A DNA stretch of 49,994 nt from a virus: the IMG/VR virus record IMGVR_UViG_3300048591_000787, positions 1 through 49,994 of that record. One strand, written 5' to 3'. The first letter of the stretch is position 1. Every line of letters begins with the position of its first letter. The notes below the pieces were generated by a model. That model made no database searches. It was not told the DNA's origin and saw only the letters and a program-made list of their open reading frames with translations. This document shows positions 4,869-46,142 of the stretch, piece after piece. Position numbers and translations under genes: made by a program.

Positions 4869-4886
4869 CATCACATAGGGGCTTGT

Positions 4887-8839: not shown

Positions 8840-8873
8840 TATTTTAATCTCTTTCCTTTCAAGAAATTCATTC

Positions 8874-9354: not shown

Positions 9355-9395
9355 TTTGATGGCCTTCCCTTCATGTCGTTATCTTGATTAGGAGG

Positions 9396-9401: not shown

Positions 9402-9551
9402 ATGGATACAGCAGATGACCTTGATGGGTGTGAGTTAGATTTCACCGAAAACCCAACGGACGACGACCTTATCACATGGCTGGTTCTCTTTCAAGATGCC
9501 GACGATGAAATTTTCCTAGCCGATCAGTGGAACGAGTTGTTCAATGCGTGA
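9402..9551 (+). CDS. Acidic small protein, 49 aa
   Basis: ATG at 9402 follows a perfect AGGAGG. The product is very acidic (DDLDGCELDFTE, PTDDDLITWLVLFQDADDE) and could act as a nucleic-acid mimic or an inhibitor, but this is only a composition-based idea. It overlaps the endolysin start by 8 bases (ATGCGTGA), so it is coupled to lysis gene expression. Confidence 0.65.
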   Translation: MDTADDLDGCELDFTENPTDDDLITWLVLFQDADDEIFLADQWNELFNA

Positions 9552-19079: not shown

Positions 19080-19424
19080 ATGGAATTTCAAGAGAAGGTA
19101 GATTCAGCGGTCCGAGGACTCTTGGAGCGATTCGAGAAGATTGGACTAGTTCCCCTAGCGGCTGATCTCGCCCTGTCGGTAGATCCTACTCAGCCGCCGA
19201 TTGAGCCAACTTCAGAGATTGTCCAGCAAAGATTTGAGAGTGGAGAATCTCGTTTAGTTGCACAAGTTGTGTTGAGGCCAACACATGTGGCTTTTACTGA
19301 ACGAGTGCTTGATCCTGAAGCACACGAGATGACACAGGCTTTTCGTAAGGAGCTTCCTACAGAGGAAGAGGTTGGTATTGATATGATGGTTGAAGAATTG
19401 TCTTCATGGGATGAAGATTTGTGA
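19080..19424 (+). CDS. Hypothetical protein, 114 aa
   Basis: ATG at 19080 has AGGATG upstream. Helical first part (SAVRGLLERFEKIGL), central beta part (RLVAQVVLRPTHVAFTERV), and acidic helical end (EEVGIDMMVEELSSWDEDL). Its stop overlaps the GTG of the glycosyltransferase gene. No family recognised. Confidence 0.6.
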   Translation: MEFQEKVDSAVRGLLERFEKIGLVPLAADLALSVDPTQPPIEPTSEIVQQRFESGESRLVAQVVLRPTHVAFTERVLDPEAHEMTQAFRKELPTEEEVGIDMMVEELSSWDEDL

Positions 19425-20089
19425 CTAGCATTGCTATTATTACTGCTGTTACTGGCGATTATGATCACGAGATCCAGCATGATGCTTTAGATCATCGTTC
19501 TGATATTCATCGTTACTTTTTTACCGATGGACAAAGTTCTAGACGTGGTTGGCGTCGCGTTGAGTTGCCAGCTAATGCTGGGTTGGATAATAGGCGACTT
19601 TCTAAGTTGCCAAAACTCAATCCTCATGCGTATGATTTCTTACGAGAATATGAGTATGTAATTTGGATTGATGGAGATATGGGAGTTCTAAACTCTAAGT
19701 TCCCAGAACAGATTATTTCTTATCTATCGTATGGATTATTACTATCTCCACACTTTGATAACCGTCACTGTGCTTACGGGGAGGCTACAATTCGTCCTCC
19801 TAAGTATGCCAATGAACCATTAGATAAACAAGTTGCTTTTTACCGGTCTGAAGGATTTCCAGAAAATTTTGGGCTTTTTGAGGCAGGTGTTCAAGTAAGG
19901 CGCATGAATTCACATGGATTAATTGAGTTTGAACGATTGTGGCTTGAACAGAATATGACGTTCTCATACCAAGATCAAATCAGTCTTCCGTATTCCTTAT
20001 GGAAGACTGGGCTTCAGTATAGCGCTTTGCCGAAGTCATTCCGAGAATATGAATGGATTCACATAAATGCTCATAAGAGGGAAGATTGA
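19421..20089 (+). CDS. DUF616 (TOD1/MUCI70)-like glycosyltransferase, 222 aa
   Basis: GTG start overlaps the previous stop. The N-terminus MTSIAIITAVTGDYD, then LSKLPKLNPHAYDFLREYEYVIWIDGDM (split), with the DxD-like metal/sugar-binding WIDGDM, resembles the TOD1/MUCI70 glycosyltransferase family. It would transfer a sugar from a nucleotide-sugar donor; donor and acceptor unknown. First gene of the sugar island (19.4-26.2 kb). Confidence 0.65.
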   Translation: MTSIAIITAVTGDYDHEIQHDALDHRSDIHRYFFTDGQSSRRGWRRVELPANAGLDNRRLSKLPKLNPHAYDFLREYEYVIWIDGDMGVLNSKFPEQIISYLSYGLLLSPHFDNRHCAYGEATIRPPKYANEPLDKQVAFYRSEGFPENFGLFEAGVQVRRMNSHGLIEFERLWLEQNMTFSYQDQISLPYSLWKTGLQYSALPKSFREYEWIHINAHKRED

Positions 20090-20904
20090 TGAGAGTTACG
20101 GTAACTGGTGCTGATGGGTTCATTGGTAAAAACGTGGTTCGTAGTTTACGTGATTTCAGTGATGTCCAGTGCATAGATCTACCATATGATATTAGAAGCT
20201 CAGAAACTGTTGGTGTTATAGTACAATGGCAACCAGATATAATCGTACATATTGCTGGTAGTTGTTCTACCACAAAGGGTATTGCTAACCCAGTTGATGA
20301 TATGTCTGTAAATGCTCTTGGTACTGTTGCCATGTTGGATGCAGCGAATCATAGTGGGGCAAGATTTATTTATACTTCTACATTAAAAGCTGAACCCACT
20401 CTGCACGGTCTTAGAACGCCATATGGTCTTAGTAAGTATGTTGGAGAGTTGTATTGTAAAGAGTTTCATAGTGTATATGGAGTACCATATATAATCAATC
20501 GCCCAGGTACAGTTTATGGAGCAGGTCAACAGGGGAGTCCAGAATCTGGATGGATTGCATGGTTTATTGAAGCTCATCAAAAACATCTTCCGGTAGTTGT
20601 AAACGGTGACGGACTCCAGCGTCGAGAGCTGCTACATGTTAGTGACTACGCAGCCCTTGTAACCACTCAGGCATTGAACTTTGAGCAATGGGAATCTAAT
20701 CAGCCATATAGAGTGGCTGGTGGTCCAAATAATGATGTGAGCGTTTTGGATGTAGTGGCAGCATTAAAACTACAACACTCTTTTGGGCCTGCAAGAATTG
20801 GTGATCACATTCAAATGAATGGTGATTCTGGGGTGTTTGATTGGGATTTGGTGAAATGGAGTGATTGGCTTGATCATTATCTGAATACAGGGGTGGAATT
20901 ATGA
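20089..20904 (+). CDS. NAD-dependent sugar epimerase/dehydratase (extended SDR), 271 aa
   Basis: ATG overlaps the upstream stop (TGATG). Rossmann GADGFIGKNV at residues ~7-16, catalytic YGLSK (Tyr-x-x-x-Lys), then NRPGTVYGAG and a late WDLVKWSDWL segment fit nucleotide-sugar modifying SDR enzymes. It likely makes or changes a UDP/GDP-sugar used by the neighbouring glycosyltransferases; exact activity cannot be named. Overlaps the methyltransferase gene by ATGA. Confidence 0.8.
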   Translation: MRVTVTGADGFIGKNVVRSLRDFSDVQCIDLPYDIRSSETVGVIVQWQPDIIVHIAGSCSTTKGIANPVDDMSVNALGTVAMLDAANHSGARFIYTSTLKAEPTLHGLRTPYGLSKYVGELYCKEFHSVYGVPYIINRPGTVYGAGQQGSPESGWIAWFIEAHQKHLPVVVNGDGLQRRELLHVSDYAALVTTQALNFEQWESNQPYRVAGGPNNDVSVLDVVAALKLQHSFGPARIGDHIQMNGDSGVFDWDLVKWSDWLDHYLNTGVEL

Positions 20905-21428
20905 ATCATCATGATAATCGTACAGACAAAGGGTCATGGGCTCATAACTATCTTATGATTTATGATCGCATAATCAGCAACCCTCCTGATAGAGTATTAG
21001 AGATTGGTATATACCAAGGAGGGTCTCTGAGGGTTTGGGCGGATGAGTGGCCTGATGCAGAATTGCACGGTGTTGATATTGATGCTGCTTTTATACGTGA
21101 TGACATACCGGCAAATATCCATCTCGCAGATGCATATCAACCATCTATATTACTTGAGCCATGGGCACTGCCTGGATTTGATCTTATTATTGACGATGGT
21201 CCTCATACAATAGAGTCACAATTATTTACCATAACTAAATGGGTAACATTATTGCGCTCTGGCGGTGTGCTTGTTGTTGAAGATATTCGGGATGAGTTGA
21301 CTTTACAAGAACTGGCCTCCAACCTGCCGCTGGAAATGAAAAGGCGATCCTTCGGTGTTGTTTTAGATGGCTGTTCGTCTCAATTCTCTGATTCACATTG
21401 GAGTAGGATGTTGGTGGTCTTGGGATGA
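20901..21428 (+). CDS. Sugar O-methyltransferase-like, SAM dependent, 175 aa
   Basis: TDKGSWAHNYLMIYD is the lead motif of the MycE/TylF-type sugar O-methyltransferase group; LEIGIYQGGSLRVW is the SAM-binding motif I, and LIIDDGPHTIESQ the acidic metal/SAM motif. About 100 residues shorter than the usual members. It would methylate a hydroxyl on a sugar, capping or protecting it. Overlaps both neighbours by four bases. Confidence 0.75.
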   Translation: MNHHDNRTDKGSWAHNYLMIYDRIISNPPDRVLEIGIYQGGSLRVWADEWPDAELHGVDIDAAFIRDDIPANIHLADAYQPSILLEPWALPGFDLIIDDGPHTIESQLFTITKWVTLLRSGGVLVVEDIRDELTLQELASNLPLEMKRRSFGVVLDGCSSQFSDSHWSRMLVVLG

Positions 21429-22090
21429 CTACAACTATTATTATTCCAAGCTTAAACAGACCTCAATATATTAAAGATACTGTGGAAAATATTCGTAGCG
21501 TAACAGAAGACTTTTTTCTTCTGTATTGTGTAAGTGATGCTGCATCAGCAAACGAACTTATTGCCTTAGGTGTACCCTTTATATATGACTGTGCATGTAT
21601 TCAAGTGCCGTGTGTTTGTGACACTAGATATGTTACTCGTATGAATAAACTGGGGAGGTTGGTTGAAACAGAATTTCTGTTTACTGGTACAGATGATTCG
21701 TTATTTCATCCTAATTGGCTTGAAGAGCTACTACGAGTAGCTAGTAAGGGGTTTGATGTGATTGTCCCTGATGATATGTTAAATCCATCTGGAACTCTTG
21801 CACTTATCCGTACTAGTTATATACATGATCCTGGGGCCGTTTTGGATGCTCCGGGGTTATTATTCCATCCTGACTACTGGCATAATGGTGCAGATGTTGA
21901 GCAATTCGCAACAGCCATTTTCCATGGACGATTTGCTAGAGCTATGGAATCTAAAGTGCAGCATCTTCATGCGTCTAGTACAAATCGTCCGATGGACGAT
22001 ACATATGAAAGATTTGCATACAGTGCAGAGGGTAATCAACGAGACCAGGCTCTGTTAGAGCGGCGCAAGATTTTATGGGAAGGAAATTGA
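21425..22090 (+). CDS. Glycosyltransferase family 2-like, 221 aa
   Basis: MTTTIIIPSLNRPQYIKDTV is a GT2 nucleotide-sugar-binding start; the DxD-like region FTGTDDSLFHPNW (metal binding) and a C-terminal HLHAS fit a GT-A fold. Cys-rich loop CACIQVPCVCD is unusual. Donor and target unknown. Overlapping ATGA with upstream gene and TGATG with downstream epimerase. Confidence 0.7.
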   Translation: MTTTIIIPSLNRPQYIKDTVENIRSVTEDFFLLYCVSDAASANELIALGVPFIYDCACIQVPCVCDTRYVTRMNKLGRLVETEFLFTGTDDSLFHPNWLEELLRVASKGFDVIVPDDMLNPSGTLALIRTSYIHDPGAVLDAPGLLFHPDYWHNGADVEQFATAIFHGRFARAMESKVQHLHASSTNRPMDDTYERFAYSAEGNQRDQALLERRKILWEGN

Positions 22091-23016
22091 TGAGGTTCTT
22101 AGTTACGGGTGCTCAGGGTTTTATTGGAAGCTATGTGGTTGATCAATTGATCGAGCTAGGTCATGATCCTATTATTTTTGATAGGCATCGTAGATACTCG
22201 ACTGATGTTGAATTTTGGTTAGGTGATTTAACTGATTATGCTTCGGTAACGGAAGCGGTTGGAAACTCTGATAGAGTTATTCATTGTGCTGGAGTGCTGG
22301 GGACTAGTGAAACCATTAACAATCCAACACCGGCTGTGGAAACCAATATTATTGGTGGCCTGAATATTTTTCAGGCCATGCGACAGCATAATGTCCCTGG
22401 TACATATGTTACTGTAGGTAATTATTGGATGAACAATAGTTATTCGATTACTAAAACAACTGCTGAACGATTCGCTTGGATGTTTAACAGCGAGCATGGT
22501 ACTAGAATTGCTGTTGTTAGGGCATTGAACGCATACGGTCCTCGTCAAAAAATTGGTCCAGTTCGTAAGATAATGCCCAACTTTATTGTGCCCGCTCTCA
22601 AGGGAGAACCCATAACAATTTATGGGGATGGTCGACAGATTATGGACATGATTTACGTTGGTGATGTGGCTCATATTCTTATTGAGGCGGCTATGCGTAT
22701 TGAATTAGATCATTACAGGTGGTCACCTCAGCGAGATCAAGACTCTCCTTGCAAGTATGAAGCTGGTACTGGTCGAATTACAACAGTGAACGATATTGCA
22801 AGTATTGTACTTGCTGAACTTGGGCTTGAGTTCATAGAGGGAGAAACGGTGCAGCATGTTCCGATGCGTGGTGGAGAGCCTGTTGGAAGTGTTGTTGTTG
22901 GGAATCCAGATACGTTAGTTCCACTATATGATGGATCAGTTAATTTGAAATCTTTGGAAGATGGCGTGCGAGAAACCATTATTTATTACCAAGAGGTTTT
23001 AAATCCATTGATTTAA
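22090..23016 (+). CDS. NAD-dependent epimerase/dehydratase (extended SDR), 308 aa
   Basis: ATG at 22090 in a TGATG overlap, with AAGGA just upstream, is preferred over 22075. Rossmann GAQGFIGSYV, active-site YSITK, RALNAYGPRQKIGPV, and IYGDGRQIMDMIYVGDV are typical of UDP-glucose 4-epimerase-type enzymes. C-terminal part includes AGTGRITTVNDIA. A paralogue-class partner of the first epimerase (20089), but the two proteins are not close. Followed by an 11-bp inverted repeat that sequesters the next start. Confidence 0.8.
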   Translation: MRFLVTGAQGFIGSYVVDQLIELGHDPIIFDRHRRYSTDVEFWLGDLTDYASVTEAVGNSDRVIHCAGVLGTSETINNPTPAVETNIIGGLNIFQAMRQHNVPGTYVTVGNYWMNNSYSITKTTAERFAWMFNSEHGTRIAVVRALNAYGPRQKIGPVRKIMPNFIVPALKGEPITIYGDGRQIMDMIYVGDVAHILIEAAMRIELDHYRWSPQRDQDSPCKYEAGTGRITTVNDIASIVLAELGLEFIEGETVQHVPMRGGEPVGSVVVGNPDTLVPLYDGSVNLKSLEDGVRETIIYYQEVLNPLI

Positions 23017-23023
23017 CCGTCAG

Positions 23024-23065
23024 AAACTCCATAGTATCCTCTAATCGGAGGTCGCTATGGAGTTT
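23024..23065 (+). promoter_or_regulatory. Hairpin that occludes the start and ribosome binding site of the next gene / T-tailed terminator
   Basis: AAACTCCATAG (23024-23034) pairs perfectly with CTATGGAGTTT (23055-23065). The latter contains the start codon ATG (23057) of the 123-aa gene and is followed by a T6 run. Within the loop, CCTC (23038-23041) can pair with GAGG (23048-23051), masking the Shine-Dalgarno. So one stem could terminate transcription and block translation. Confidence 0.65.
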
Positions 23066-23428
23066 TTTGGTGTTCGCGCAGATATCTCTGTTACAGAGAT
23101 TACTCCAGATTCACACTGGGAATCTCGTCATGATCTCTACAAGAAGGTGAAGCGATCTAGGGGTTGGTACATGTCACTTGATCCAGAGCAGCGGGCAGCT
23201 TTAGCGGAGAAGGTTCGTGGTTCCCTGGCTGTAATGGTTGATAAGGTTGATGAGTGGTTGCCAGATGCTTTTGTGGGCGACTTAGTGGGAGAAACTATCA
23301 GAATTGAATTACAGCTTGTTTTGGCTGACATTGATTCCGCCGTTGCCAAACAACGACACTCCTCATCTTATAATCTCAACAAGATGGCTGCTAAGGTTGA
23401 AGCGATGTTGGAAGAGATGGACGAATGA
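23057..23428 (+). CDS. Hypothetical protein, 123 aa
   Basis: ATG 23057 follows CGGAGG, both located in the predicted hairpin. Product is helical (DLYKKVKRSRGWYMSLDPEQ, DEWLPDAFVGDLVGETIRIELQLVLADI in two parts). ATGA overlap with the RuvC-like gene suggests they work together; may be a partner or regulator of the resolvase, which is speculation. Confidence 0.6.
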   Translation: MEFFGVRADISVTEITPDSHWESRHDLYKKVKRSRGWYMSLDPEQRAALAEKVRGSLAVMVDKVDEWLPDAFVGDLVGETIRIELQLVLADIDSAVAKQRHSSSYNLNKMAAKVEAMLEEMDE

Positions 23429-23871
23429 TAGTTCTAGGGGTCGATCCCGGATTGTCTGGGGCATTGGCTCTGCTTGATAATCGTGTTTTGGTGGCAGTTT
23501 GTGATATGCCTGTTATGGACAGTAGGGTCGATTCCGTTACTTTGAGTGATGTTATCAAATCTTGGAATCCCGATGAGGCAGTGGTTGAAAAAGTGGCTTC
23601 AATGCCTGGACAGGGCGTTGCATCTACCTTCAAATTTGGAATGTCTTATGGTGCTGTGCTTGGGGTTTTGGGTGCGCTTCAGATTCCGGTTCGCCACATT
23701 CGTCCTACGCAATGGAAAACGGCTGCCCATATCGGCTCCGACAAAGAGAAGGCTCGTGCGTTGGCTATCGACATCTGGCCCCACATGGCCACAGAGATGG
23801 CTCGCAAGAAAGATCATGGTCGAGCTGAAGCAGCCTTGATTGCATTATGGGGAGATGGAATTGGGATCTAA
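23425..23871 (+). CDS. ruvC: RuvC-like Holliday junction resolvase, 148 aa
   Basis: MIVLGVDPGLSGALALLDN carries the first catalytic Asp; VVEKVASMPGQGVASTFKFG the Glu and Lys; and KDHGRAEAALIALWG the last Asp residues of the RNase H-like RuvC fold. Length is a bit short of bacterial RuvC (~170 aa), normal for phage versions. It would cut four-way or branched DNA before packaging. It interrupts the sugar island, which suggests island insertion around an older gene or the reverse. Confidence 0.85.
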   Translation: MIVLGVDPGLSGALALLDNRVLVAVCDMPVMDSRVDSVTLSDVIKSWNPDEAVVEKVASMPGQGVASTFKFGMSYGAVLGVLGALQIPVRHIRPTQWKTAAHIGSDKEKARALAIDIWPHMATEMARKKDHGRAEAALIALWGDGIGI

Positions 23872-24541
23872 TTTGATTGTAGGATGTCCGATCTCTAGCA
23901 GAGAATGGATTATTGAGCGGTGGCGTGATCACGTTGATAAATACATTAGCGTAGACAAAACTTTTCTTTTCGTCAGCGGTCCTAATGATCCAACTCTTGA
24001 TATTGTGAAATCCTGGAATGATGCAGAAATTGTTCTAGTCAACGACCCACTGCGTGATGATGAGCGTAGTTGGACCAAGCCACGGTATCATGTGATGGTT
24101 GAGTTGCGGAATACCCTCTTGAAAAGAGTGCGTGAATTACAGCCTGCTTATTTCTTCAGCCTAGATTCAGATATATTATTGCATCCACATGGGTATTCAG
24201 ATGCAATGAAATTTTTTGAAGATGATAAAGTTTGGGCGGTTGGTTTAAAGGCATACATGCATCCGACCAGTATTGTTTATACATCTGCCATGAATCATAC
24301 TAGATATGGATGGAAGCGTGGGACGAGGACTGGTTCTGTAGAAGTGATTATGGCTGCGAAGATTATGGACCCAAGAGCCTATTCTATTGATTACGAGTTC
24401 TCTCCAATGGGAGAAGATATAGGATGGTCTGAAGCTGTACGGCGTGCTGGTGGGGTTTTGATGTGGGATGGGAGACATGCGTCCAAGCATGTTATGAATA
24501 GAGACATGTTGGATGCTATAGATGAAAGGGTGAGCTATTGA
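23855..24541 (+). CDS. Putative glycosyltransferase, 228 aa
   Basis: Start taken at ATG 23855 (MELGSNLIVGCPI), overlapping the ruvC end; TTG 23840 is possible. Features: LIVGCPISSREWIIERW, FFSLDSDILLHP (DxD), GEDIGWSEAVRRAG and HVMNRDML. These fit a GT-A-like glycosyltransferase. Donor unknown. Followed by a TTG-started small gene. Confidence 0.6.
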   Translation: MELGSNLIVGCPISSREWIIERWRDHVDKYISVDKTFLFVSGPNDPTLDIVKSWNDAEIVLVNDPLRDDERSWTKPRYHVMVELRNTLLKRVRELQPAYFFSLDSDILLHPHGYSDAMKFFEDDKVWAVGLKAYMHPTSIVYTSAMNHTRYGWKRGTRTGSVEVIMAAKIMDPRAYSIDYEFSPMGEDIGWSEAVRRAGGVLMWDGRHASKHVMNRDMLDAIDERVSY

Positions 24542-24717
24542 TTGATTGTTTGGGTAACGAACTGTTACCGGAAGATAGTGTTGTAGTTCATACGAGCGAT
24601 GGTTTGCGTGTTGGATATATTGCTCAAACATATCCAGAAGCTTGTAGAGTGATGGTGGTGGATAAAGACGTGACATGTAGATTCTTTGTGAATCCAGATC
24701 ATATTGTCAAGGTATAA
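24538..24717 (+). CDS. Small beta protein with TTG start, 59 aa
   Basis: Frame starts at TTG 24538 (overlapping the upstream stop as TTGA) or TTG 24550. It encodes LGNELLPEDSVVVHTSDGL then RVGYIAQTYPEACRVMVVD and VNPDHIVKV, a compact beta-barrel-like (SH3-like) pattern. Not long enough for a family call. The next start (24719) follows directly. It fills what would otherwise be a 180-base gap. Confidence 0.55.
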   Translation: MIDCLGNELLPEDSVVVHTSDGLRVGYIAQTYPEACRVMVVDKDVTCRFFVNPDHIVKV

Positions 24718-24718
24718 C

Positions 24719-25468
24719 ATGGACCTACAATTAATAGTGGTAAATTATAAAACTCCAGATCTCTTAAATAGATTTATTGGTTCTGTCGAAAGGTACTACC
24801 CAACATTGACTGCCAATCTATGGATTGGCGATGTTGCGGTACCTCAAAGTGATCCTCTTTATCGAAGTTATCATTATAAGTCATATCCCGATAATTGTGG
24901 GTATGCTTATGCATGTAATGATTTGGCTTCTTATTCTGATAGTGAGTATTTAGCATTCTTCAATGCAGATACAGCATTTACAAATTCTGAATGCATTCCT
25001 TTATGTCTTGGTGTCTTGAGTGAGTCTGGCGTAGGAGCGGTTGGTCCTGCACAGGTTGATGTCAAAGGGTTTGTAACTCATGGAGGGATTACGGGGACGA
25101 ACTCTTCTCCTCAGCATAGAGCTTGGAAACAGCGAGGTGTCCCTGGAGTTATTGATGAGTGTGTGTCAGTATCTGGGTCGGCTTATTTTACTAAGCGTTT
25201 TGTGTGGAAGGAGATGACTCAGTGTTCTGTTTATCAAAACACTTTCCCTAATACTATTGGAGGGTTTCTTCCAACACCGCTGTACTACGAAGAAACAGGA
25301 TATTCATATCATTTACGTAGCCATGGTTATAAAGTAATGTATTGTGGCGAAGCTGTGATGTTACATCATTGGAATTCTTCTCCCGCCAGCAACCAGTCTC
25401 AGAAGATGCGACAAAGTAGGGAACTATTTCGCAGTTTTTGTGATACTCACCATATAGAACACGATTGA
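24719..25468 (+). CDS. Glycosyltransferase family 2, 249 aa
   Basis: Start at ATG 24719. MDLQLIVVNYKTPDLLNRFI is the GT2 start; DNCGYAYACNDL, FFNADTAF (DxD), GPAQVDVKGF, and late HHWNSS match rhamnosyltransferase-like GT2 enzymes. Role: adds a sugar to a growing glycan or protein. Ends 7 bases before the next GT gene. Confidence 0.8.
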   Translation: MDLQLIVVNYKTPDLLNRFIGSVERYYPTLTANLWIGDVAVPQSDPLYRSYHYKSYPDNCGYAYACNDLASYSDSEYLAFFNADTAFTNSECIPLCLGVLSESGVGAVGPAQVDVKGFVTHGGITGTNSSPQHRAWKQRGVPGVIDECVSVSGSAYFTKRFVWKEMTQCSVYQNTFPNTIGGFLPTPLYYEETGYSYHLRSHGYKVMYCGEAVMLHHWNSSPASNQSQKMRQSRELFRSFCDTHHIEHD

Positions 25469-25475
25469 GGTACTG

Positions 25476-26198
25476 ATGATTATTGGATCTATGGTTGTGA
25501 AGAATGAAGAAGATCGTTATTTGGAAAGATGTTTAGCATGGAACTCACGTTTTGTAGATAAGCTATTTGTCTATGATGATCAATCTAGTGACAACACTGC
25601 TGGGATAGCTGAGCAATTTGGTACCGTGGTCATACGTGATAATGAGGTGCCATCCTTCATCGAACATGAAGGACGTTTTCGACAGGCTGCATGGTTATCT
25701 ATGCGTTCTCATATGAACCCAGTTCCTGGTGATTTTATTCTATCATTTGACGCAGACGAGTTTCTGGTAGCCGATACCGAAGATGTGCGATTTGCTATGG
25801 ACAGAAGCATAGATGCCATGCGGCCAATGCATTCTGGGGTTTTGATTAACTTCAAAGAAGTTTTTAATATTACAGATGATGGTACTCTTATGTATCGAAC
25901 GGATGGGTTTTGGAATAGGATTAATGGATCTAGGTTATTTAGGTTTTTAGATGATAATGAATTCCGAGATGCATCCATGGGATGTGGTTCTGAACCTTTG
26001 TATGTATCTAGAGGAAAACACTTGGAGGCTGTGGGTGGATTGAGATTTCTTCACTTTGGATATGCTAAAAAGGAAGACAGAATTTCTAAGCACAAGCGAT
26101 ACTCTTCTCTTGCTGATTCTGGGCACAATGATCGGCATGTAGCATCTATTGTTAAACCTTCTCAATTGTCGGCTTGGAGTGGTGTAATTCCATTGTGA
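25476..26198 (+). CDS. Glycosyltransferase family 2 (DUF4422/WsbD-like), 240 aa
   Basis: Starts MIIGSMVVKNEEDRYL, a family 2 form with the early MVVKNE motif; DDQSSDNTAGIAEQFG, FILSFDADEFL (DxD) and a C-terminal LHFGYAK complete it. Last gene of the sugar island; a small gap (43 bases) leads to the packaging genes. Substrate unknown. Confidence 0.8.
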   Translation: MIIGSMVVKNEEDRYLERCLAWNSRFVDKLFVYDDQSSDNTAGIAEQFGTVVIRDNEVPSFIEHEGRFRQAAWLSMRSHMNPVPGDFILSFDADEFLVADTEDVRFAMDRSIDAMRPMHSGVLINFKEVFNITDDGTLMYRTDGFWNRINGSRLFRFLDDNEFRDASMGCGSEPLYVSRGKHLEAVGGLRFLHFGYAKKEDRISKHKRYSSLADSGHNDRHVASIVKPSQLSAWSGVIPL

Positions 26199-36955: not shown

Positions 36956-37408
36956 ATGGCTTCCTTCTTGTACAATAACTTTAAAGAATATCTTTTAGAT
37001 GGCACTTGGAACCCGGCCGATGGGACGATTACTTGTGTACTAGCCGACTCGGCCACTGCTACCATTCCAGCACAGAATGCTGCTACTCCAGTATATAGCG
37101 ATCTTGCGAGTGCTGGGCTTGGCAAGAACTCCAGTGATGTTGTGGTTACTGCCACTTTAGGTACTCCTACATACACTGATGGTGTGCTAGATGCATCCAC
37201 AGATGCCAGTACATTTACTGCTGTAGATGGTGGCGGTGCTCGTGTGGATTCGTGTAACAGGATAGTGATCTATCAGGCTACGACCAACATCCTCATGGGA
37301 GTTATCGAACTTGGTTCTGCTGTTACATTTACTGGTGGGGACGTCATTGTTGATTGGGATGACACCACTTCCATGAATGGACAGACTGGTGGCGTGTTTG
37401 CCATCTAA
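36956..37408 (+). CDS. Tail/fibre protein, 150 aa
   Basis: ATG 36956. N-terminal FLYNNFKEYLLDGTWNPADG, then Asp/Thr-rich strands ending in GVIELGSAVTFTGGDVIV, DWDDTTSMNGQTGGVFAI. The C-terminal pattern T-G-G-x-hh-V-x-W-x-x-x-x-G-h-F-x-h is shared with the real end of the gene at 37607 and with 45729. Probably a shared phage tail fold. Confidence 0.6.
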   Translation: MASFLYNNFKEYLLDGTWNPADGTITCVLADSATATIPAQNAATPVYSDLASAGLGKNSSDVVVTATLGTPTYTDGVLDASTDASTFTAVDGGGARVDSCNRIVIYQATTNILMGVIELGSAVTFTGGDVIVDWDDTTSMNGQTGGVFAI

Positions 37409-37427: not shown

Positions 37428-37610
37428 ATGTCATGGGCTATTCCCAACAAAGTTACGGCCAACTATCAAGAACAGGCTCGACTTATGGTGGCGTTGTTTA
37501 CTGAGTCGATTACAGGGGCTAATAAGAATGCTTCTGAATCCTACAACTCTGGGACGTGGGCTTCCAATGAAGTAGGTAGTCAAACTGCCGTTGACTGGGC
37601 CACGCTGTGA
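37428..37610 (+). CDS. Tail protein, N-terminal fragment-like, 60 aa
   Basis: Starts MSWAIPNKVTANYQEQARLM, matching the opening pattern of the two next proteins (IPNE..A.Y..QA). It then ends early (STGTWAS..VDWATL). It could be a full small protein or the remains of a resident fibre gene cut where the GC-rich block begins; its stop overlaps the next GTG (37607). Confidence 0.55.
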   Translation: MSWAIPNKVTANYQEQARLMVALFTESITGANKNASESYNSGTWASNEVGSQTAVDWATL

Positions 37611-38341
37611 GCTACACGATCCCCAACGAGGCAGATGCCCCCACCTACCCGGCTCAAGCGGAGCCGGACGCCGGAGACTTCCGCTCGCTCGGGCACGCCG
37701 CCTCGGGGTCGGGTGTGCTGTACGGGCTGCAAGTGGCGCCCGGCAACTCGGGGGTCGACCGGTCGGTGGTGATCGGGTACGGCCGTCTCGTGTATTTCGG
37801 GTGGGACCATGTCGCGCACCCGAAGACGACGATCGCATCCGGTGCGATCGTCGCTGATGGCACCCATCCTCGGTGGGCGCTGATCCACTCGACGGACTCT
37901 GGTCGGACGCTGACTGTGTCGTTGGGGACTGCCGCGGCTAACCCGGTGTTCCCCGCAGTCGCCGAGCTGGAGGTGGTGCTGGCAGCGATCTACCTCCCGG
38001 CCGCTGCGACATCGATCACTGCGGCGAACATCGTCGACAAGCGGGTGCTACAGACGGGGTCTCTGGTGTCCACAGCGACGTATCAGCCTCGGGCGCTCCC
38101 GCCATCTGCCCCGAAGCGGGCCTCGTACGCCCGATTTGGTGCCCCCGGATACGACGGCACCAACAATCTCGCGGCGAACACGGCCTACACGCTGTACGAC
38201 TCGTCGGACACCAACTATGGACCGGTGCGGCGGCCACATCTCAGCTCGTCGCTTACATCGACGGGCTCAGTATTACGCCTAACGGTGGGACCATCACCGT
38301 GGATTGGCACCCTAGCGGCATTTTCACATTGTGACGAGTGA
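37607..38341 (+). CDS. Tail-fibre protein with N-terminal attachment module; likely frameshifted C-terminus, 244 aa as read
   Basis: GTG 37607 overlaps the previous stop. First ~150 residues (IPNEADAPTYPAQAEPDAGDF, then GLQVAPGNSGVDRSVV, GTHPRWALIHSTD) match the start of the next protein, a probable tail-attachment module. From 38219 the reading becomes implausible (RRPHLSSSLTSTGS). Reading on in the -1 frame gives TGAAATSQLVAYIDGLSITP, NGGTITVDWHPSGIFTL and a TGA at 38332, resembling the C-termini of other tail proteins here. So one base (an A after TATGGA) seems lost, or a programmed shift occurs. Confidence 0.7.
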   Translation: MSYTIPNEADAPTYPAQAEPDAGDFRSLGHAASGSGVLYGLQVAPGNSGVDRSVVIGYGRLVYFGWDHVAHPKTTIASGAIVADGTHPRWALIHSTDSGRTLTVSLGTAAANPVFPAVAELEVVLAAIYLPAAATSITAANIVDKRVLQTGSLVSTATYQPRALPPSAPKRASYARFGAPGYDGTNNLAANTAYTLYDSSDTNYGPVRRPHLSSSLTSTGSVLRLTVGPSPWIGTLAAFSHCDE

Positions 38342-38359
38342 CGACGAGAGGATAAGTCG

Positions 38360-40207
38360 ATGACCGTGTTCACAGTGCCGAACGAGGCGTCTGCCACATA
38401 CGGGCCCCAAGCCGAATTAGACGCGCAGGATTTCGCAGCGTTGTCCTATGCGCTGTCCGGCTCGAGTGTGGTGGGTATCGGCTGTCAGGTGACTCCTGGG
38501 AACACCGGCGTGGACCGGTCACTTGTTGTGAGCGCCGGGCGGGTGTCGATCGGGGGGGCGGGTGCGGTCGAGATTTCTAAGACCACGTTCGCGTCCGGAT
38601 CGGTGACTGCAGATGGCACACATCCGCGGTGGGTGCTTGTCGTGTCTGACGGTACGACCGTGGCACTGAATGTGGGGACTGCCGCAGCGGCGCCCGTGTT
38701 TCCCACCATCACAGCGTTCACGGTGCTGCTCGCTGCCGTGTACGTCCCTGCCAACGCTGCTTCGATCACATCAGCGAACATCATCGACAAAACAGCGATG
38801 GCATCGTTGACTTGGCAGATGCCGGCCCAGGCTCGTGTTCCTGCACGCCAAACGTCCGCAACGTTCCGGCGTGGCACGTTCGCAGCTCACGGCCCGCCAG
38901 GATCGAACGGTGCCGTGCTCACGAATGGCGTGGAATCGACACTTTTCGATTCAGGTGACACGGCCAAGGGCGGGTTCAGTGGCCTCACATCCTCGCCCGG
39001 CCAGGTGAAGCGTATAGCGCTATTCGTGCTGACATCCGGGGCGAACGACGAATGGACCGCCATCGAACTCCCCCGGCTGAAGATCTACTACGACGGGAAC
39101 ACGACGGCTGATATTGATATGCCGCTTCGCCGGTGGTGCGGGACGACAGGCCTGACTTCGACCGATGTGGTCCCGGATGTCCGGCACCCACTGTGGACGG
39201 TGTACAGCAAGAACGACAGTGGGTTTGGGGGCCGGTTGCTCTCGTTCACCCTGCACCTGCCGATCCCTTTCTCCACGCGCTGCAAGGTGACCTTTACCCC
39301 GATCACGGGAGTTGACCCACTCATGTGCTGGTCGTTGGTCGATTACGTCGTTGGCGACAGCGAAGGGTTCGGGGATCGCAAACTGCGTACCATCTGGTGG
39401 GATCACGGTTCCGAGTCATCTTCGGGGGACCGCGCCGGGACGAACGACACGACGGGTCGCAACGATCAGACAGAGGTGTCCGTCGGTGAATATCACTGGT
39501 GGGATTCCGGGTGGGGGTCCCGTTTGTATGGCTCGCTCACAAGTGGTGCTACGACGGTTGAGGTCTACAACGGCCCCGCGTTCACGCGCAACCTGCCCGT
39601 CGGCGTGAAAGATCCGCGGACGGGCACGGCGATCACAAACACGACGACGGCGCTCGCCCCCGATTGCTACGCCATGATCGACTCCGAGGTCGTGAAGATC
39701 ACTGCAATCTCGGGTAACACTCTGACGGTCCAACGGGGCCAGACTCATCCGATTACGGGTGCGGCCACGACGGCGACATCTCACGCCGATCAGGCGATGC
39801 TGAAGCGGATCGTCGGGCCAACCAAGGTTGAGCTGTGGCAACTCGGCCTCTCATCTGTCGGATCTACCGCGTCGTTCATGGAGGGTCCGATCGGCCTGTT
39901 TTGCGACGCGGATTCGGCGCCCCTTTCCGGTGGGCAGCTCCCGACGCTTGGGTCTGGTGGTACCGAAGACTTCTTTGGGGTCGGCTGGTACGCTCTTTCG
40001 GCCAACAACGCGTCCGATACGGGTAACCCCGAGCACGGATGCCACCATCAGAGACCGTGGACCGCCTGCTTCTACCGATGGTTCAACCGTGTGTGGGCTG
40101 ACGATTGCCTAGCACTAACGTCCCAGAACGGCGAGTCGGGGCAAGGGTCAGGCCCCCCGGGGTCCACGTATACGGGCTCCACGTTGTGGGTCTACACGCC
40201 TCACTGA
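38360..40207 (+). CDS. Tail-fibre protein with DUF2961/GH172-like glycoside hydrolase domain, 615 aa
   Basis: N-terminal ~155 residues repeat the attachment module of the preceding gene (VPNEASATYGPQAELDAQDF, QVTPGNTGVDRSLVV). Residues ~200-300 and ~490-600 resemble DUF2961/GH172: LKIYYDGNTTADIDMPL, LSFTLHLPIPFSTRCKVTF, SFMEGPIGLFCD, GGTEDFFGVGWYAL and a late PWTACFYRWF. Glu508 and Glu536 are candidate catalytic residues. A beta domain (about 395-480, IDSEVVKITAISGNTLTVQRG in part) is inserted. Some GH172 enzymes cleave D-arabinofuranosides of the mycobacterial wall. A wall-polysaccharide depolymerase on the tail is a strong hypothesis. Confidence 0.65.
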   Translation: MTVFTVPNEASATYGPQAELDAQDFAALSYALSGSSVVGIGCQVTPGNTGVDRSLVVSAGRVSIGGAGAVEISKTTFASGSVTADGTHPRWVLVVSDGTTVALNVGTAAAAPVFPTITAFTVLLAAVYVPANAASITSANIIDKTAMASLTWQMPAQARVPARQTSATFRRGTFAAHGPPGSNGAVLTNGVESTLFDSGDTAKGGFSGLTSSPGQVKRIALFVLTSGANDEWTAIELPRLKIYYDGNTTADIDMPLRRWCGTTGLTSTDVVPDVRHPLWTVYSKNDSGFGGRLLSFTLHLPIPFSTRCKVTFTPITGVDPLMCWSLVDYVVGDSEGFGDRKLRTIWWDHGSESSSGDRAGTNDTTGRNDQTEVSVGEYHWWDSGWGSRLYGSLTSGATTVEVYNGPAFTRNLPVGVKDPRTGTAITNTTTALAPDCYAMIDSEVVKITAISGNTLTVQRGQTHPITGAATTATSHADQAMLKRIVGPTKVELWQLGLSSVGSTASFMEGPIGLFCDADSAPLSGGQLPTLGSGGTEDFFGVGWYALSANNASDTGNPEHGCHHQRPWTACFYRWFNRVWADDCLALTSQNGESGQGSGPPGSTYTGSTLWVYTPH

Positions 40208-40219
40208 AAGGATCATCCC

Positions 40220-40690
40220 TTGGCAGCGATCAGCTACACGACACCGGGCACGCCATCCACAATACTGTCGTCGGCGTCGACCGGCCTGGCGAACAACGCC
40301 TACGCCGGGTCCGGGACTGCGTCCGTGACCGTCACGGCGTCCAACAACAAAACAACTCCGAAGCTGTTCGGCTGGTTCGAATTGTACGTGCACGACTTTG
40401 GGGGGACCCCCACCGACGGCGGATTTGTGACGCTGTTCCTCGCCACGTCCAACGATGGCACGACGTACGCTGACGGGCACGACGGATCTGTGGCGCCAGC
40501 GCTGGAACTGGCCGTGGGCACGTTCACGCTCCGTAACGTTGACGCGCCGCAGCGGCTGCATTTGTGGAACATTCCGCTACCGCCATTGCACTTCAAGCCG
40601 GTGTTGCTGAATAAGGCGGGCCAAACTCTAGTCGGGAATGGGACAGCCACCACGCTAGCCGTGGCGACTTACGACTATCAGGTGATCTAG
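40220..40690 (+). CDS. Tail/fibre accessory protein, 156 aa
   Basis: TTG at 40220 follows AAGGA. Ser/Thr/Ala-rich and beta-rich: STILSSASTGLANNAYAGSG, KLFGWFELYVHDFGGTP, GTTYADGHDGSVAPALELAV. Ends in a TAGTG overlap with the giant gene. It could form a capping or coat layer of the fibre; function unknown. Confidence 0.6.
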   Translation: MAAISYTTPGTPSTILSSASTGLANNAYAGSGTASVTVTASNNKTTPKLFGWFELYVHDFGGTPTDGGFVTLFLATSNDGTTYADGHDGSVAPALELAVGTFTLRNVDAPQRLHLWNIPLPPLHFKPVLLNKAGQTLVGNGTATTLAVATYDYQVI

Positions 40691-43600
40691 TGCTGCTGGA
40701 CCCGTCTAGGCGGTATGTCTCGCCGGGGGTGCTTCTCCGGCCCGACTGGGCCTCCAGTCTTACCGCCGATCTGGTCTTTGCGCTCGTCGGTAAGCGCGAG
40801 CTACTGACTGGCGCGTGTCTACTTCCGGCGCCTAACTCGCCAGGTCGCACAGCCGACCGCAATTTGGGGTACCCGCAGCACAGGGGCCACGTCATCGCCG
40901 ACGGTACGTCATCCCCGGCAACGACCAATTCGGGGTGGTTCCTGCCGGGGTATATGCGCGGCACGACGCTGAGTACTACCCCGTTCCGGCGACTTGCCGG
41001 GTCGACCGACTACACCGTGTTCGTGTCTGCGCGGTTTGGGACCGCCGCCAGTTACGGCAAAGTGCTGTCGTTCTGGCACGACCAATCAGACACGTCGGCG
41101 CAGCCTTACGTGACATTCTCCCTAGGTTCCGGCGGCTCCAATCTGGGCGACTTTGAACATAGTTGGTCTGACACGACGGGCAATATCCAGTCGTCGTATT
41201 CCCCATGGGGGACCCCGATCGTATGGGACCAAGGTGTACGGGCGGACACGACCTACGCCTTCACGCGATCATCTGGCACTTTCAAGTGGTTCCGTAACGG
41301 CGTCCAATTCGGGGCGGACATTACTGGGCAGTCCACGACCCCGGTGGGGTTTCGTGCGCTGACAGAGAACCCCGCCATCGGCATCCGCTCGCCTAATGCG
41401 GGCAGTGAGATGGTGTCGGGCGAGATGCCGGTAATTCTCGTGTGGAATCGGGTACTAACACCCGCCGAGATCCAGAGACTACACATCGACCCGCTGGCAT
41501 TCGTGGACACGCGGCCGCGGTTCCTTGGCCAGAATATGGCCGGGGTGCCGGTGACCATTTCGCCTAGTCTGTTCGTCAGCGCCACGGCCACATTCCCGAC
41601 GCCGGTGGTTCGTTTTGGCGGTTTCGCCGCGCCGTTCACTGTGCGTGTCTCGGCCGTGCGCGGCGGTCATCGGCTGCGCGGGGAGGGGTCCACCCCCGCG
41701 ACCCCTTCAGCGTTCACCTCGACCGCAACCTTCCCGACACCGACCGTCGCGCAGACCGTCACCCCCGCGGCGTTCGCGAACGGGTCGAGTTTCCCGACAC
41801 CGACTGTCGCGCAGACGATCACCCCCGCGGCGTTCACCTCGACCGCAACCTTCCCGACACCGACCGTCGCGCAGACGATCACCCCCGCGGCGTTCGCGAA
41901 CGGGTCGAGTTTCCCGACACCGACCGTGACCGTCGCGGGAGACACGTCGGTCGGCGTGTGGGAGATGCTGCCCATCCGCACCGAAGCCGAGCGTGCGGGC
42001 GGTGTGATCGGCGGTGAAGGGAAGCAGCATCCCCGCTCGATCGCTGTCGCACCATCCGACTCGGATGTCATCTGGCTTACCCATGACATCGGCGGTGTGT
42101 GGCGGTCCGCTGACGCCGGACGGTCATGGCAGAAGTGCCCGTGTCGGGGCATGCCGTTGTTGGCGATGGCGTCGATCGCTGTCGACCCGACCGACCCTGA
42201 CATCGCCCTCGTCATAGCGAACCACACCGTGCAGACACTCATGCCCGACAACCTCCAGGGCATCTATCGCACCGTCGACGGTGGCGACACATGGGCGCTG
42301 GTGCAGGCCACGATCGCTGACGCCGCCCAGTCGGAGACAGGCACCGGGTTCTCGCGCGAGGCCCAGTCGAACATCATCTGGGCAGACAGCAAGTGGTGGG
42401 CGTTCATCGACGGCTCCTCCGGTACGGTCTGGTCGTCGACGAACGGCACCTCTTGGACGGAACACACGGCGACGGGTATCACGGGCTGGGGGAACGTGTA
42501 CACGGTCGTGCCCGGGAGCACGAACGAGCTGCTTGTCGCGACCGGTGGCGGGCTGAAGAAGTGGAACACGTCCACCACCTCCTTTTCGTCTGTGGCCTCC
42601 CCGGGCGGGTCGCTGTGCTTGTGGATCGCTCGCGACCCGAACACTGCGGGCCGCTATTGGGTGGTGAAAGCCGCCGGGGAGAACAACTCGATCAACTCCG
42701 CGGTGTACCGCACTGACGATTACGGGTCGTCCTGGTCCTCTGCGGTGACGACCGCTCACGGCACAGGCACCCGATCCGTGCACGCGATCGATACCGGGAC
42801 GTCCACACGGCTCCTTACCCTCGCGAACGACGACGTGACCGGATCGGCTAAGTACGCCAGATGGTCTGACGATGTTGGTTCGACGTCGCCGACGTGGACG
42901 CAATGTAATGTGCGGGGTCGTCTCGGGACGGTCGAGGGCGACTTCGGAAAAGGCTGGCTGCTGTCCGGCGGCGCTGCTGCCACGTCGCATCCCGGGTCGG
43001 CGGTGTTCACCGGTACGACAGGCGTAGCGTTTTCTGAGGCAACGATCCTCCGCTCGACGGACGGCGGGAAATCATGGCGCTGGTCTGCTACCGGCTGGGG
43101 TGGGATGGCAGGCACCGGCTACGCCGGATCTGGTCTGCACTTCGACGGTGACACCGTGTCGCTCATGTTGCAGGACACCGGGTGGATCCGCTCAACGGAT
43201 GGCGGGGCGTCGTGGCGCGAGTATGACAAGCCTGCGGCCACTTACGGCGGAGCGAATCTGTACTCGGCGCTGTTCGATTCGGTGGGGGTGGTCGCAACCT
43301 CCGGCGAGAACTCAAAGGGTGTGTTCCGTCAGACGTGGACCACCGAGCCGGATGAGAACGCCTGGGTGGACATCACTCCAGGGTCGACCGCCCGCAACTA
43401 CCACCATCTGACGTTGCGAGGCGGCAGATGGTTCGTCGGCGGGTTCCGCACCCCGACAGCCGGGAAGACGTCGGCGACGTTGACGTCTGGTGACTGGTCG
43501 GGGATGCCCGTCGGCAGCTCCCCCTACTACGGGGAGCTGGTCGACTCGACCGACACCGAATTGTGGGCGCTTCGCACCTACGACGCGGGGACGGAACCGG

Positions 43601-45729
43601 CCACCCTGTACCGCAAGGTGTGGTGCACGACGACGATGGACGGCTCGACGTGGTCTGCTGCTTCTGCTTTCAACGTGATCGAGCGTGACGCCTACTTCCG
43701 GTCCCGGCCGGTGTTCGCCGCCACCGGAGCGTCCACGTTCATCGCTCCCTGCAACCGTGCGGGTGATTCGGGGAGCCTTCCCGCCGATCTCGGCGTCTAC
43801 ACGTTCACCGGTTCCGCTGGGGCGATCACCCCAACTACCCGACTCGGAGTCATCGAGGCGTTCGAGGCGGACAATGGCGCTCTGCCGTGGAACTACCCGA
43901 CGTACATCGCGATCGATCCCTCTGACACGGACGTGATCTATGTGGCGTTCGACGCCGTGAACGTCGACGTCATCTACCGCTCCGTGAACGGCGGGGCGTC
44001 ATGGGAGAATGTGTCGTCCGGATACCCGATCGGCGCGGTGCGAATGATGCGGGTGCACCCCGACACCGGCGATCTGTGGGTGTCAGGGATGCACGGCAAC
44101 TGGATCCTCCCCGGTCCGGTACCGGTCGGGTCGCTCACCGAGGCATCCACCGTGTCCGGCCCGGTGACGGTCGGCTACGCCGATGTGATCGACCAGCCCA
44201 CCGTGCTGCAAACCGCGTCCTCTCAGGGGGGTGTGAGCCCGGCGGCGATCACTCTGACGGACACGACGGTAGGGTCAACGCTGATCGCTGTGGTGCGGGC
44301 GTCGTCGACGGTGACGGTCGGTGCCCCGGCGGGGTGGACGGAGGGCGGGGCGTACTCCCCATCGAACCCTCAGCTCAAAGTGTTCTACCGGACCGCTACC
44401 GGAGACGGCTCCGACAACTTCTCGGCGACGCTGTCGGGTGCCGGGCAGTGGAACGTGCAGGTGATCGAAGCGACCGGGATCGCCGCCGCACCTTCCGACA
44501 CGGAGAACTCCACATCGTCCGGTGAAGTCGCATCCCCGGTGGATGTGACCAGGGCGGGCACCACTTCCGCCGGACTGGTCGTGATCGCAGCCGCCACGAA
44601 CGTCGGCAGCAACCCGACGATGGAAGGGTGTGCCGTCTCTGCCCTCGACGGCAACGGAGTTTACGGGCTCGCCTCCCAGGCCGGGATGGGGTCAGCGGTC
44701 TACTCGATGGTCGCCTACCGGGTGCAGACCGATGCCGTCGGCGCAGGCGAGGTGTCGGCCCGTCTGTCGTGGACGAACGCGGACACTTACCAGGTGAACG
44801 CGATGGCGTTGATCTGGCCGTTGTCGTCGGCCCCGGTTCAGGCAACCGTTCTTGCTAACGTCAATGTGTTTGGCTCCGCAACTGTACATCAAGCGATGCC
44901 AGCAAGTTCCACTACATCCATCAATACATTTGGTATACTCGCCGTTCATCAAATTGTTGATGTTGTTGCCATTACGCCTACAAATGCATTAGGGACCGTT
45001 GATTCTCATCAAGATGTGTCTGTCAACGCATTAGTCAATGCAACGTCATTTGGTTCTGTAATCGTCAACCAAACAATCCCGATTACAGTAATTACTTCGG
45101 ACGTTACCATTCCCATCCCAACAGTAGATGGTACTATTGTTCGCAGTGCAGATGCCATTACACATTCTAATACTCTAGGAGTACCAACTGTTCACCAAAC
45201 CGTGGAGATAACGGCTGTTACATCATCTGGTGCCTTCGGTGTTGCAAGCATTGGACAGATCATTGCAACAGATGGCGTTATTGCATCCCACACCCTTCCA
45301 GAGCCCATCGTTCATCAACAGGTATCGGTTGTTGGTGTTGTCAATAGCACTGTGTTTGGTACACATGATCTAGACGTGTCTGGGGTAGTTGAACCAACCG
45401 GGGTGGCAAATACTAATACTGTTGGCACTCCTACAATCCATCAAACTGTTCCGGTGATGGGCTTGGATAATGAGAATACTGTTGGGGCTCCTGCCTTTAA
45501 TCAGCAGATTTCCGTTACAGGAACATCTTCCAGCAATACATTTGGGACTGCAATCATTGGCCTAGGGGTAAGTGTTATTGGGGGGCCTTCCGTAAATGCC
45601 ATAGGAACAGTTCTGATTCACCAATCATTGCCGATTGGTGGGGTGGTTGGAAGTAATGTGTTTGGACTTCCCTATATTCCTGATGACCAAACAGAAAACT
45701 TCTTTTTCTTCTTCTTGGCAGGGTACTAA
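40690..45729 (+). CDS. Giant chimeric tail protein: LamG-like + Asp-box propeller + carbohydrate-binding-like + repeats, 1679 aa
   Basis: Residues ~1-275 look like a LamG/concanavalin-like domain (ADTTYAFTRSSGTFKWFRNG, VLVWNRVLTPAEIQRL without the first V). ~338-417 are 20-aa repeats (TPAAFANGSSFPTPTVAQTI). ~437-1150 hold many Asp-box (BNR) motifs such as SADAGRSW, TVDGGDTW, STDGGKSW, STDGGASW, SVNGGASW, i.e. a sialidase-like beta-propeller. ~1174-1380 is another beta domain (VGAPAGWTEGG, VFYRTATGDGSDNF). ~1384-1667 is about 14 repeats near 20 aa (NTFGT..VHQTV) and the end is FFFFFLAGY. Base composition turns from GC-rich to AT-rich near residue 1383. Confidence 0.75.
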   Translation: MLLDPSRRYVSPGVLLRPDWASSLTADLVFALVGKRELLTGACLLPAPNSPGRTADRNLGYPQHRGHVIADGTSSPATTNSGWFLPGYMRGTTLSTTPFRRLAGSTDYTVFVSARFGTAASYGKVLSFWHDQSDTSAQPYVTFSLGSGGSNLGDFEHSWSDTTGNIQSSYSPWGTPIVWDQGVRADTTYAFTRSSGTFKWFRNGVQFGADITGQSTTPVGFRALTENPAIGIRSPNAGSEMVSGEMPVILVWNRVLTPAEIQRLHIDPLAFVDTRPRFLGQNMAGVPVTISPSLFVSATATFPTPVVRFGGFAAPFTVRVSAVRGGHRLRGEGSTPATPSAFTSTATFPTPTVAQTVTPAAFANGSSFPTPTVAQTITPAAFTSTATFPTPTVAQTITPAAFANGSSFPTPTVTVAGDTSVGVWEMLPIRTEAERAGGVIGGEGKQHPRSIAVAPSDSDVIWLTHDIGGVWRSADAGRSWQKCPCRGMPLLAMASIAVDPTDPDIALVIANHTVQTLMPDNLQGIYRTVDGGDTWALVQATIADAAQSETGTGFSREAQSNIIWADSKWWAFIDGSSGTVWSSTNGTSWTEHTATGITGWGNVYTVVPGSTNELLVATGGGLKKWNTSTTSFSSVASPGGSLCLWIARDPNTAGRYWVVKAAGENNSINSAVYRTDDYGSSWSSAVTTAHGTGTRSVHAIDTGTSTRLLTLANDDVTGSAKYARWSDDVGSTSPTWTQCNVRGRLGTVEGDFGKGWLLSGGAAATSHPGSAVFTGTTGVAFSEATILRSTDGGKSWRWSATGWGGMAGTGYAGSGLHFDGDTVSLMLQDTGWIRSTDGGASWREYDKPAATYGGANLYSALFDSVGVVATSGENSKGVFRQTWTTEPDENAWVDITPGSTARNYHHLTLRGGRWFVGGFRTPTAGKTSATLTSGDWSGMPVGSSPYYGELVDSTDTELWALRTYDAGTEPATLYRKVWCTTTMDGSTWSAASAFNVIERDAYFRSRPVFAATGASTFIAPCNRAGDSGSLPADLGVYTFTGSAGAITPTTRLGVIEAFEADNGALPWNYPTYIAIDPSDTDVIYVAFDAVNVDVIYRSVNGGASWENVSSGYPIGAVRMMRVHPDTGDLWVSGMHGNWILPGPVPVGSLTEASTVSGPVTVGYADVIDQPTVLQTASSQGGVSPAAITLTDTTVGSTLIAVVRASSTVTVGAPAGWTEGGAYSPSNPQLKVFYRTATGDGSDNFSATLSGAGQWNVQVIEATGIAAAPSDTENSTSSGEVASPVDVTRAGTTSAGLVVIAAATNVGSNPTMEGCAVSALDGNGVYGLASQAGMGSAVYSMVAYRVQTDAVGAGEVSARLSWTNADTYQVNAMALIWPLSSAPVQATVLANVNVFGSATVHQAMPASSTTSINTFGILAVHQIVDVVAITPTNALGTVDSHQDVSVNALVNATSFGSVIVNQTIPITVITSDVTIPIPTVDGTIVRSADAITHSNTLGVPTVHQTVEITAVTSSGAFGVASIGQIIATDGVIASHTLPEPIVHQQVSVVGVVNSTVFGTHDLDVSGVVEPTGVANTNTVGTPTIHQTVPVMGLDNENTVGAPAFNQQISVTGTSSSNTFGTAIIGLGVSVIGGPSVNAIGTVLIHQSLPIGGVVGSNVFGLPYIPDDQTENFFFFFLAGY
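41701..41940 (+). repeat. Four 60-bp direct repeats in an A-B-A-B order
   Basis: Four consecutive 60-base units (41701, 41761, 41821, 41881) share TTCCCGACACCGAC and flanks; units 1 and 3 (CGTTCACCTCGACCGCAACC) alternate with 2 and 4 (CGTTCGCGAACGGGTCGAGT). Together they form two near-identical 120-bp blocks that encode the 20-aa repeats. Confidence 0.9.
44839..45690 (+). repeat. AT-rich 20-aa coding repeats (about 14 copies)
   Basis: Degenerate ~60-bp units encode the pattern N-T-h-G-x-x-x-h-H-Q-x-h (examples INTFGILAVHQIV, NTVGTPTIHQTV, NTFGTAIIGLGV). They resemble the GC-rich repeats upstream (FPTPTVAQTI) at protein level but not in base composition. Confidence 0.7.
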
Positions 45730-46142
45730 TGGCAAATCACGTTTATCCAAATGGGAAAAAGTACCTAATTGATAATGCAGATGTATGGGGCAGTGATGAT
45801 TGCTGCTTATCGCTGATGACTTCTGGATACACATATAGTCGCACACATACCTCTATGAGTCCAGTAGTTGGACACCGTTTGACAAATGGTAAATCTGGCA
45901 TCCTGCAAAATACTGTTGTGACATACGACGAGAACAATGATCGTTGCATCTTTGAGTCAGATGAAATTGAGATTTCTGGTGTATCTAGTGGACAAACCAT
46001 TATATCTGTAGTGTTGCACACCTATCATGCATCTGATCCAGCACAAGAAGTGCCTCTTGCCTTCTTTGATGGGTTCAACATCACTACAGATGGTGGTAAT
46101 ATTACAGTAACATGTCCGAATAATGAATGGTTTTATATCTGA
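45729..46142 (+). CDS. Tail protein, 137 aa
   Basis: TAATG overlap with the giant gene. Its sequence CLSLMTSGYTYSRTHTS, EISGVSSGQTIISVVLH and GFNITTDGGNITVTCP, NNEWFYI parallels the 36956 protein in the order of strands. AT-rich like the resident genes, so the foreign block ends before it. Function: virion/tail. Confidence 0.6.
   Translation: MANHVYPNGKKYLIDNADVWGSDDCCLSLMTSGYTYSRTHTSMSPVVGHRLTNGKSGILQNTVVTYDENNDRCIFESDEIEISGVSSGQTIISVVLHTYHASDPAQEVPLAFFDGFNITTDGGNITVTCPNNEWFYI

Follow-up and report, generated by a model that had tools for sequence, protein, structure and literature searches.

What a glycosidase-like domain does in the tail-fibre block of a phage is the question raised by an open reading frame in IMG/VR virus record IMGVR_UViG_3300048591_000787, of which positions 1 to 49,994 (49,994 nucleotides) form the window analysed here. 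An initial annotation had taken its product for a tail protein resembling the DUF2961/GH172 family, a possible D-arabinan depolymerase from a phage of mycolic-acid bacteria. The frame and the predicted parts of its product are as follows:

38360..40207, + strand: putative tail-fibre protein with a DUF2961/GH172 domain, 615 amino acids (ATG at 38360, stop at 40207)
38360..38821, + strand: N-terminal anchor domain, residues 1–154, common to ORF 37607–38341 and to tail-region genes of phage contigs L029 and L030
38996..39349, + strand: jelly roll 1 of DUF2961, residues 213–330 (profile match and alignments), containing PIPFSTRCKV
39359..39790, + strand: insert between the jelly rolls, residues about 334–477
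39791..40204, + strand: jelly roll 2, the catalytic half, residues 478–615 (best PF11175 stretch and alignments), containing MEGPIGLF and GGTEDFFG
39881..39883, + strand: Glu508, equivalent of the acid/base Glu270 of αFFase1 (invariant column, 7v1v alignment)
39965..39970, + strand: Glu536-Asp537, equivalents of Glu291 (nucleophile) and Asp292 of αFFase1 (invariant columns, 7v1v alignment)

The Pfam profile PF11175 matched the 615 amino acid protein with an E value of 8e-8 (32.5 bits; curated cut-off 27) and its best stretch at residues 505–575, and a six-frame search of the whole record found the same locus with 34.1 bits for the frame. An independent profile, for which 12 cellular DUF2961 proteins were used and the phage sequence left out, scored 36.6 bits (E 1.3e-10) over two collinear segments, residues 213–330 in jelly roll 1 and 502–574 in the catalytic half, against a top score of 3.8 bits among 1000 shuffled copies. 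All three motifs on which the annotation had relied (PIPFSTRCKV, MEGPIGLF and GGTEDFFG) are present in the frame, the first aligning with the PMPF of cellular members, and the family likeness it had proposed was borne out by these HMM searches. Identity to any DUF2961 member is only about 20%. A chance likeness of short motifs, with no true DUF2961 domain behind it, is very improbable: pairwise BLASTP to one cellular member was marginal, at 25 bits with an E of 0.005 calculated for this one pair, but the two independent profile tests, the shuffled controls, the collinear segments in jelly rolls 1 and 2 and the clean alignment of the relatives' jelly roll 1 pieces with the corresponding half of the phage protein all speak against it. 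Judged by its sequence, the domain is real.

The protein is predicted to run from a phage anchor domain through jelly roll 1 and the insert to the catalytic jelly roll 2. Residues 6–154 of the anchor share 34–41% identity with tail-region genes of IMG/VR contigs L029 and L030, and the anchor also matches the baseplate protein phrog_20556 (5.7e-6). The insert, of about 120–140 amino acids, is missing from the other 13 members of a 14-member DUF2961 alignment; it includes a phage-type β segment (CYAMIDSEVVKITAISGNTLTVQRGQ) and its region gave weak matches to phrog_4406 and phrog_1101. Both halves of the relatives could not be placed around this insert in a single MAFFT alignment, and AlphaFold was given shallow alignments holding either their jelly roll 2 rows or their jelly roll 1 rows. 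The two resulting models of the domain were of low confidence (pLDDT 37.7 and 43.8). In the second of them, the jelly roll 1 part resembled jelly roll 1 of 8ic8 (Z 7.7 over 132 residues) and 7v1v (Z 7.5 over 146 residues), followed by 8ah3 (Z 6.0) and 4kq7 (Z 5.8), the matches to GH172 structures being limited to jelly roll 1 and their Z scores of 5.8–7.7 lying below the level that stands out. This resemblance lends weak support, since other jelly rolls score equally and the alignment rows were themselves DUF2961 pieces; Foldseek with the second model returned no match at E < 0.001.

Residues E508, D516, E536, D537 and R573 are invariant across the 14 aligned members, and the profile of this alignment recovers the known structures 8IC8, 7V1V, 4KQ7 and 8AH3. 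Glu508 and Glu536, already named in the initial annotation, align with the proven catalytic pair E270/E291 of αFFase1, an enzyme in which mutants of E270, E291 and D292 lost activity (PMC8605356); activity was likewise lost in E233A and E254A of DgGH172c (PMC10115798). W543 of the phage protein falls on W298 of αFFase1, and the Tyr187′ supplied there by the neighbouring protomer aligns with Trp324. Trp267 of αFFase1 (-1/+1 subsite) is replaced by Ser505, and its equivalent is also missing in the LEG-type cellular members L083, L084 and L086. The retention of E508, E536, D537 and R573 in a domain that has otherwise drifted to about 20% identity suggests selection on the active site.

The genes around the frame place it among tail-fibre genes. 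Those upstream match phrog_3304 (L-shaped tail fibre assembly) and phrog_19976 and phrog_4549 (tail assembly, tail fibre), and this location, together with the virion-anchor domain, agrees with the tail protein of the initial annotation. The frame also lies in a stretch of deviating composition, whose limits and remaining genes are these:

37587..44848, strand not applicable: high-GC cassette of 7.3 kb (change-point fit; 64.3% GC, the remainder of the record having 45.2%)
37607..38341, + strand: paralogous anchor protein, 244 amino acids, 46% identical to residues 4–221 of the DUF2961 protein
40220..40690, + strand: cassette protein of unknown family, 156 amino acids, between two fibre genes
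40690..45729, + strand: putative fibre protein, 1679 amino acids, with a LamG-like segment, a Sortilin/BNR-type propeller and C-terminal repeats

The 1679 amino acid protein matches PF15902 (6.7e-13) and, under the curated cut-off of that profile, Laminin_G_3 (7.9e-5). The product of ORF 37607–38341 ends inside jelly roll 1 and is a truncated duplicate that lacks the catalytic half. GC3 is 0.72–0.78 in the four cassette genes, as opposed to 0.27–0.56 elsewhere in the window. The 3′ break in GC (44848) falls inside the uninterrupted 1679 amino acid frame and the 5′ break (37587) at a gene junction, positions that make real recombination more likely than an assembly chimera at the cassette edges. 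Small phrog_644-like genes flank the cassette on both sides (36956–37408 and 45729–46142) and are possible cassette-exchange sites.

By its capsid and terminase, the phage is related to GX15bay (from mangrove soil) and to 22 IMG/VR records. In those 22 records (0/22), no protein matched DUF2961 or was related to the 615 amino acid protein. At the position of the cassette, the nearest relatives of the phage, L006 and L007, have three other genes in a comparable arrangement (226–227, 153–159 and 1210–1312 amino acids), with a backbone-like GC3 of 0.36–0.56. The stretch 37587–44848 is apparently a recent import, an adhesion cassette swapped in from a high-GC phage lineage, which would have brought the gene in and replaced the resident fibre genes. 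In related phages, the terminase (L008, L026 and L027) or the portal (L009 and L028) is split by about 0.9–1 kb, the protein match resuming in place, and these interruptions of late genes are possibly inteins or introns. The record itself also carries a glycosyltransferase cluster at 19421–26198 with two NAD-dependent epimerases and a methyltransferase.

In a published survey covering about 6,000 DUF2961 homologues, every domain of life was represented, viruses were not, and no viral genes lay near the homologues (PMC8812541). Our exact-motif scans of IMG/VR (GGTED[FY]FG and GTGTED) yielded one further true phage member, a DUF2961 protein encoded at 8550–9905 on the minus strand, in the tail region of a Mu-like contig (L002, IMGVR_UViG_3300050034_000546) that also carries terminase, Mu portal, major head and transposition genes. 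Contigs L003 and L004 contain the motif but had no PF11175 match. With the 615 amino acid protein as query, tblastn found nothing among 50,697 phage records and a pattern scan found no relative in IMG/VR, while cellular GH172 proteins produced only four tblastn matches, all to unannotated faecal records; these were not counted as phage members, and both of those inspected (MT835628 and MT835583) are marked UNVERIFIED. The exact-motif scans are insensitive and do not prove that phage DUF2961 proteins are rare. In a tree, the phage protein groups with the L002 protein and those of Granulicella (support 0.94, long branches). By eye, the L002 protein seems to begin with a signal peptide. Granulicella L036, with two genes about 2 kb apart (924–2357 and 4584–5728), encodes a DUF2961 protein with collagen-like repeats, and the N-terminus of the second gene product resembles, again by eye, a GH51 α-L-arabinofuranosidase. 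The recognition of DUF2961 domains among the tail genes of two tailed phages that are not related to each other corrects the absence from viruses given in the survey. No phage GH172 was described in the literature searched, within the limits of which the present case is the first for the enzyme family.

An actinobacterial host is likely, because the best matches of the endolysin and the ribonucleotide reductase (RNR) are in actinophages. The endolysin (9544–10383; Amidase_2 and PG_binding_1) has matches in 454 phage records, most of them from phages of Streptomyces, Gordonia and Arthrobacter. The class II RNR finds its closest matches in Mycobacterium phages Gaia and Nebkiss (47.6%) and in a lake Actinomycetia phage. 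The RNR gene (14864–18184) has an intein inside, with an HNH endonuclease and a NUMOD3 motif. Contig L029, which encodes a relative of the anchor, looks actinophage-like by its major capsid protein, which matches 848 phage records, mostly of Mycobacterium, Gordonia and Microbacterium phages. A terminase search of 296 Actinomycetota genomes found nothing and is uninformative for the host. The narrower proposal of a mycolic-acid host was not upheld: the signal is only actinobacterial, the backbone is 45% GC, and the record, which may be a fragment, gave no match to PF01083 (cutinase/LysB-type; the control worked) or to PF13810 (GH183; a search that had no positive control). GH172 itself occurs in 25 of 396 Actinomycetota genomes and in other phyla, many of the carriers being non-mycolata.

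Phage fibres are usually trimeric. In the described structures of GH172 enzymes, which are anomer-retaining, a basal trimer is likewise seen, with the active site formed where two protomers meet (PMC8605356, PMC10509167, PMC10115798), so the double jelly roll of the phage protein is probably trimeric too, and a trimeric fibre would be a natural mount for such a trimer-interface enzyme. We favour, as somewhat the better supported account, that ORF 38360–40207 encodes a receptor-binding protein of the tail fibre, headed by a retaining exo-furanosidase of GH172 type, and that the gene came in a high-GC adhesion cassette. The N-terminal 150 or so residues would dock the protein on the virion, Glu508 would act as acid/base and Glu536 as nucleophile, and terminal α-D-arabinofuranosyl (or α-D-fructofuranosyl-like) residues would be removed from an actinobacterial envelope glycan during adsorption. 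We infer that such terminal furanosyl trimming of a host glycan is the most likely role. The term D-arabinan depolymerase goes too far, since the characterized GH172 members are exo-enzymes releasing terminal α-D-arabinofuranose or α-D-fructofuranose (PMC10115798, PMC10509167, PMC8605356) and the known endo-D-arabinanases belong to GH183; being presumably exo-acting, the phage enzyme would be unlikely to depolymerize arabinan alone.

Among the alternatives, the one that survives best keeps the furanosidase active and changes its substrate, for example to an α-D-fructofuranoside or a different furanoside carried by the exopolysaccharide of a non-mycolata actinobacterium. This is a fair minority possibility, given that the few GH172 members characterized already act on two sugars (PMC8605356, PMC10509167) and that the host signal is generally actinobacterial, tempered by α-D-arabinofuranose being the substrate of most of those members. 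Rather unlikely is a head that has lost catalysis and serves as a trimeric, lectin-like receptor-binding double jelly roll with its catalytic residues kept by descent only. The strong divergence of the protein, the loss of Trp267, the large insert separating the two halves and the doubtful use of an exo-enzyme for digging through a glycan layer would all suit such a head, but both Glu residues, the adjacent Asp and the Arg have been kept in spite of that divergence. More doubtful still is the version of the initial annotation, an enzyme against mycobacterial-type arabinogalactan in a phage of a mycolic-acid bacterium. GH172 enzymes of Nocardia and Microbacterium do remove α-D-arabinofuranose from arabinogalactan (PMC10115798, PMC10509167), a Gordonia phage encodes an endo-acting GH183 enzyme (PMC10115798), and the affinity of the RNR to Gaia and Nebkiss and of the anchor to an actinophage-type contig point the same way; against this stand the backbone GC content, the missing GH183 (in a search lacking a positive control) and cutinase/LysB matches, the fructofuranosidases within GH172 and its many non-mycolata carriers.

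Returning to the favoured exo-furanosidase head, a wider evolutionary reading strikes us as evenly balanced: on at least two occasions, tailed phages not related to each other would have taken up a cellular double jelly-roll enzyme family, one suggested to be kin to the double jelly-roll capsid proteins, and put it to use as an active trimeric enzyme of the fibre; in the present phage it would be interrupted by an inserted phage β-domain and travel between phages in a high-GC adhesion cassette. The presence of the family in these tail blocks adds one more glycoside hydrolase family to those seen on phage tails, offers a test case for the mounting of a trimer-interface enzyme on a fibre, and may provide a means of attacking the D-arabinan or fructan glycans of actinobacteria.

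Compared by sequence with the GH172 structures of αFFase1 (7V1V), ExoMA1 (8IC8), DgGH172c (8AH3) and BACUNI_00161 (4KQ7), the phage protein has the same double jelly-roll layout, the equivalents of E270, E291, D292 and W298 and the invariant Arg, but differs in its low identity to the aligned members (about 20%), the fused N-terminal phage anchor, the insert of 120–140 amino acids, the Ser in place of Trp267 and the position of its gene in a phage tail block. The proteins of the Mu-like phage L002 and of Granulicella (L031 and L036) share with it a distal DUF2961 domain, GGTEDFFG and both Glu residues, and that of L002 also its origin in the tail region of a tailed phage; they have other N-terminal carriers (collagen-like in Granulicella) and no insert, and the L002 phage is unrelated, with its Mu portal and transposition genes. 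The GH183 (DUF4185) endo-D-arabinanase of Gordonia phage GMA6 is likewise a phage-encoded furanosidase domain, but of a different, endo-acting family that was not detected in the present record (by a search without positive control). The better-known families of phage tail depolymerases are mostly β-helix lyases and hydrolases. With these tail-spike and tail-fibre enzymes the protein described here apparently shares one plan, an anchor followed by a distal glycan-active domain, encoded in the fibre block and exchanged by cassette swap.
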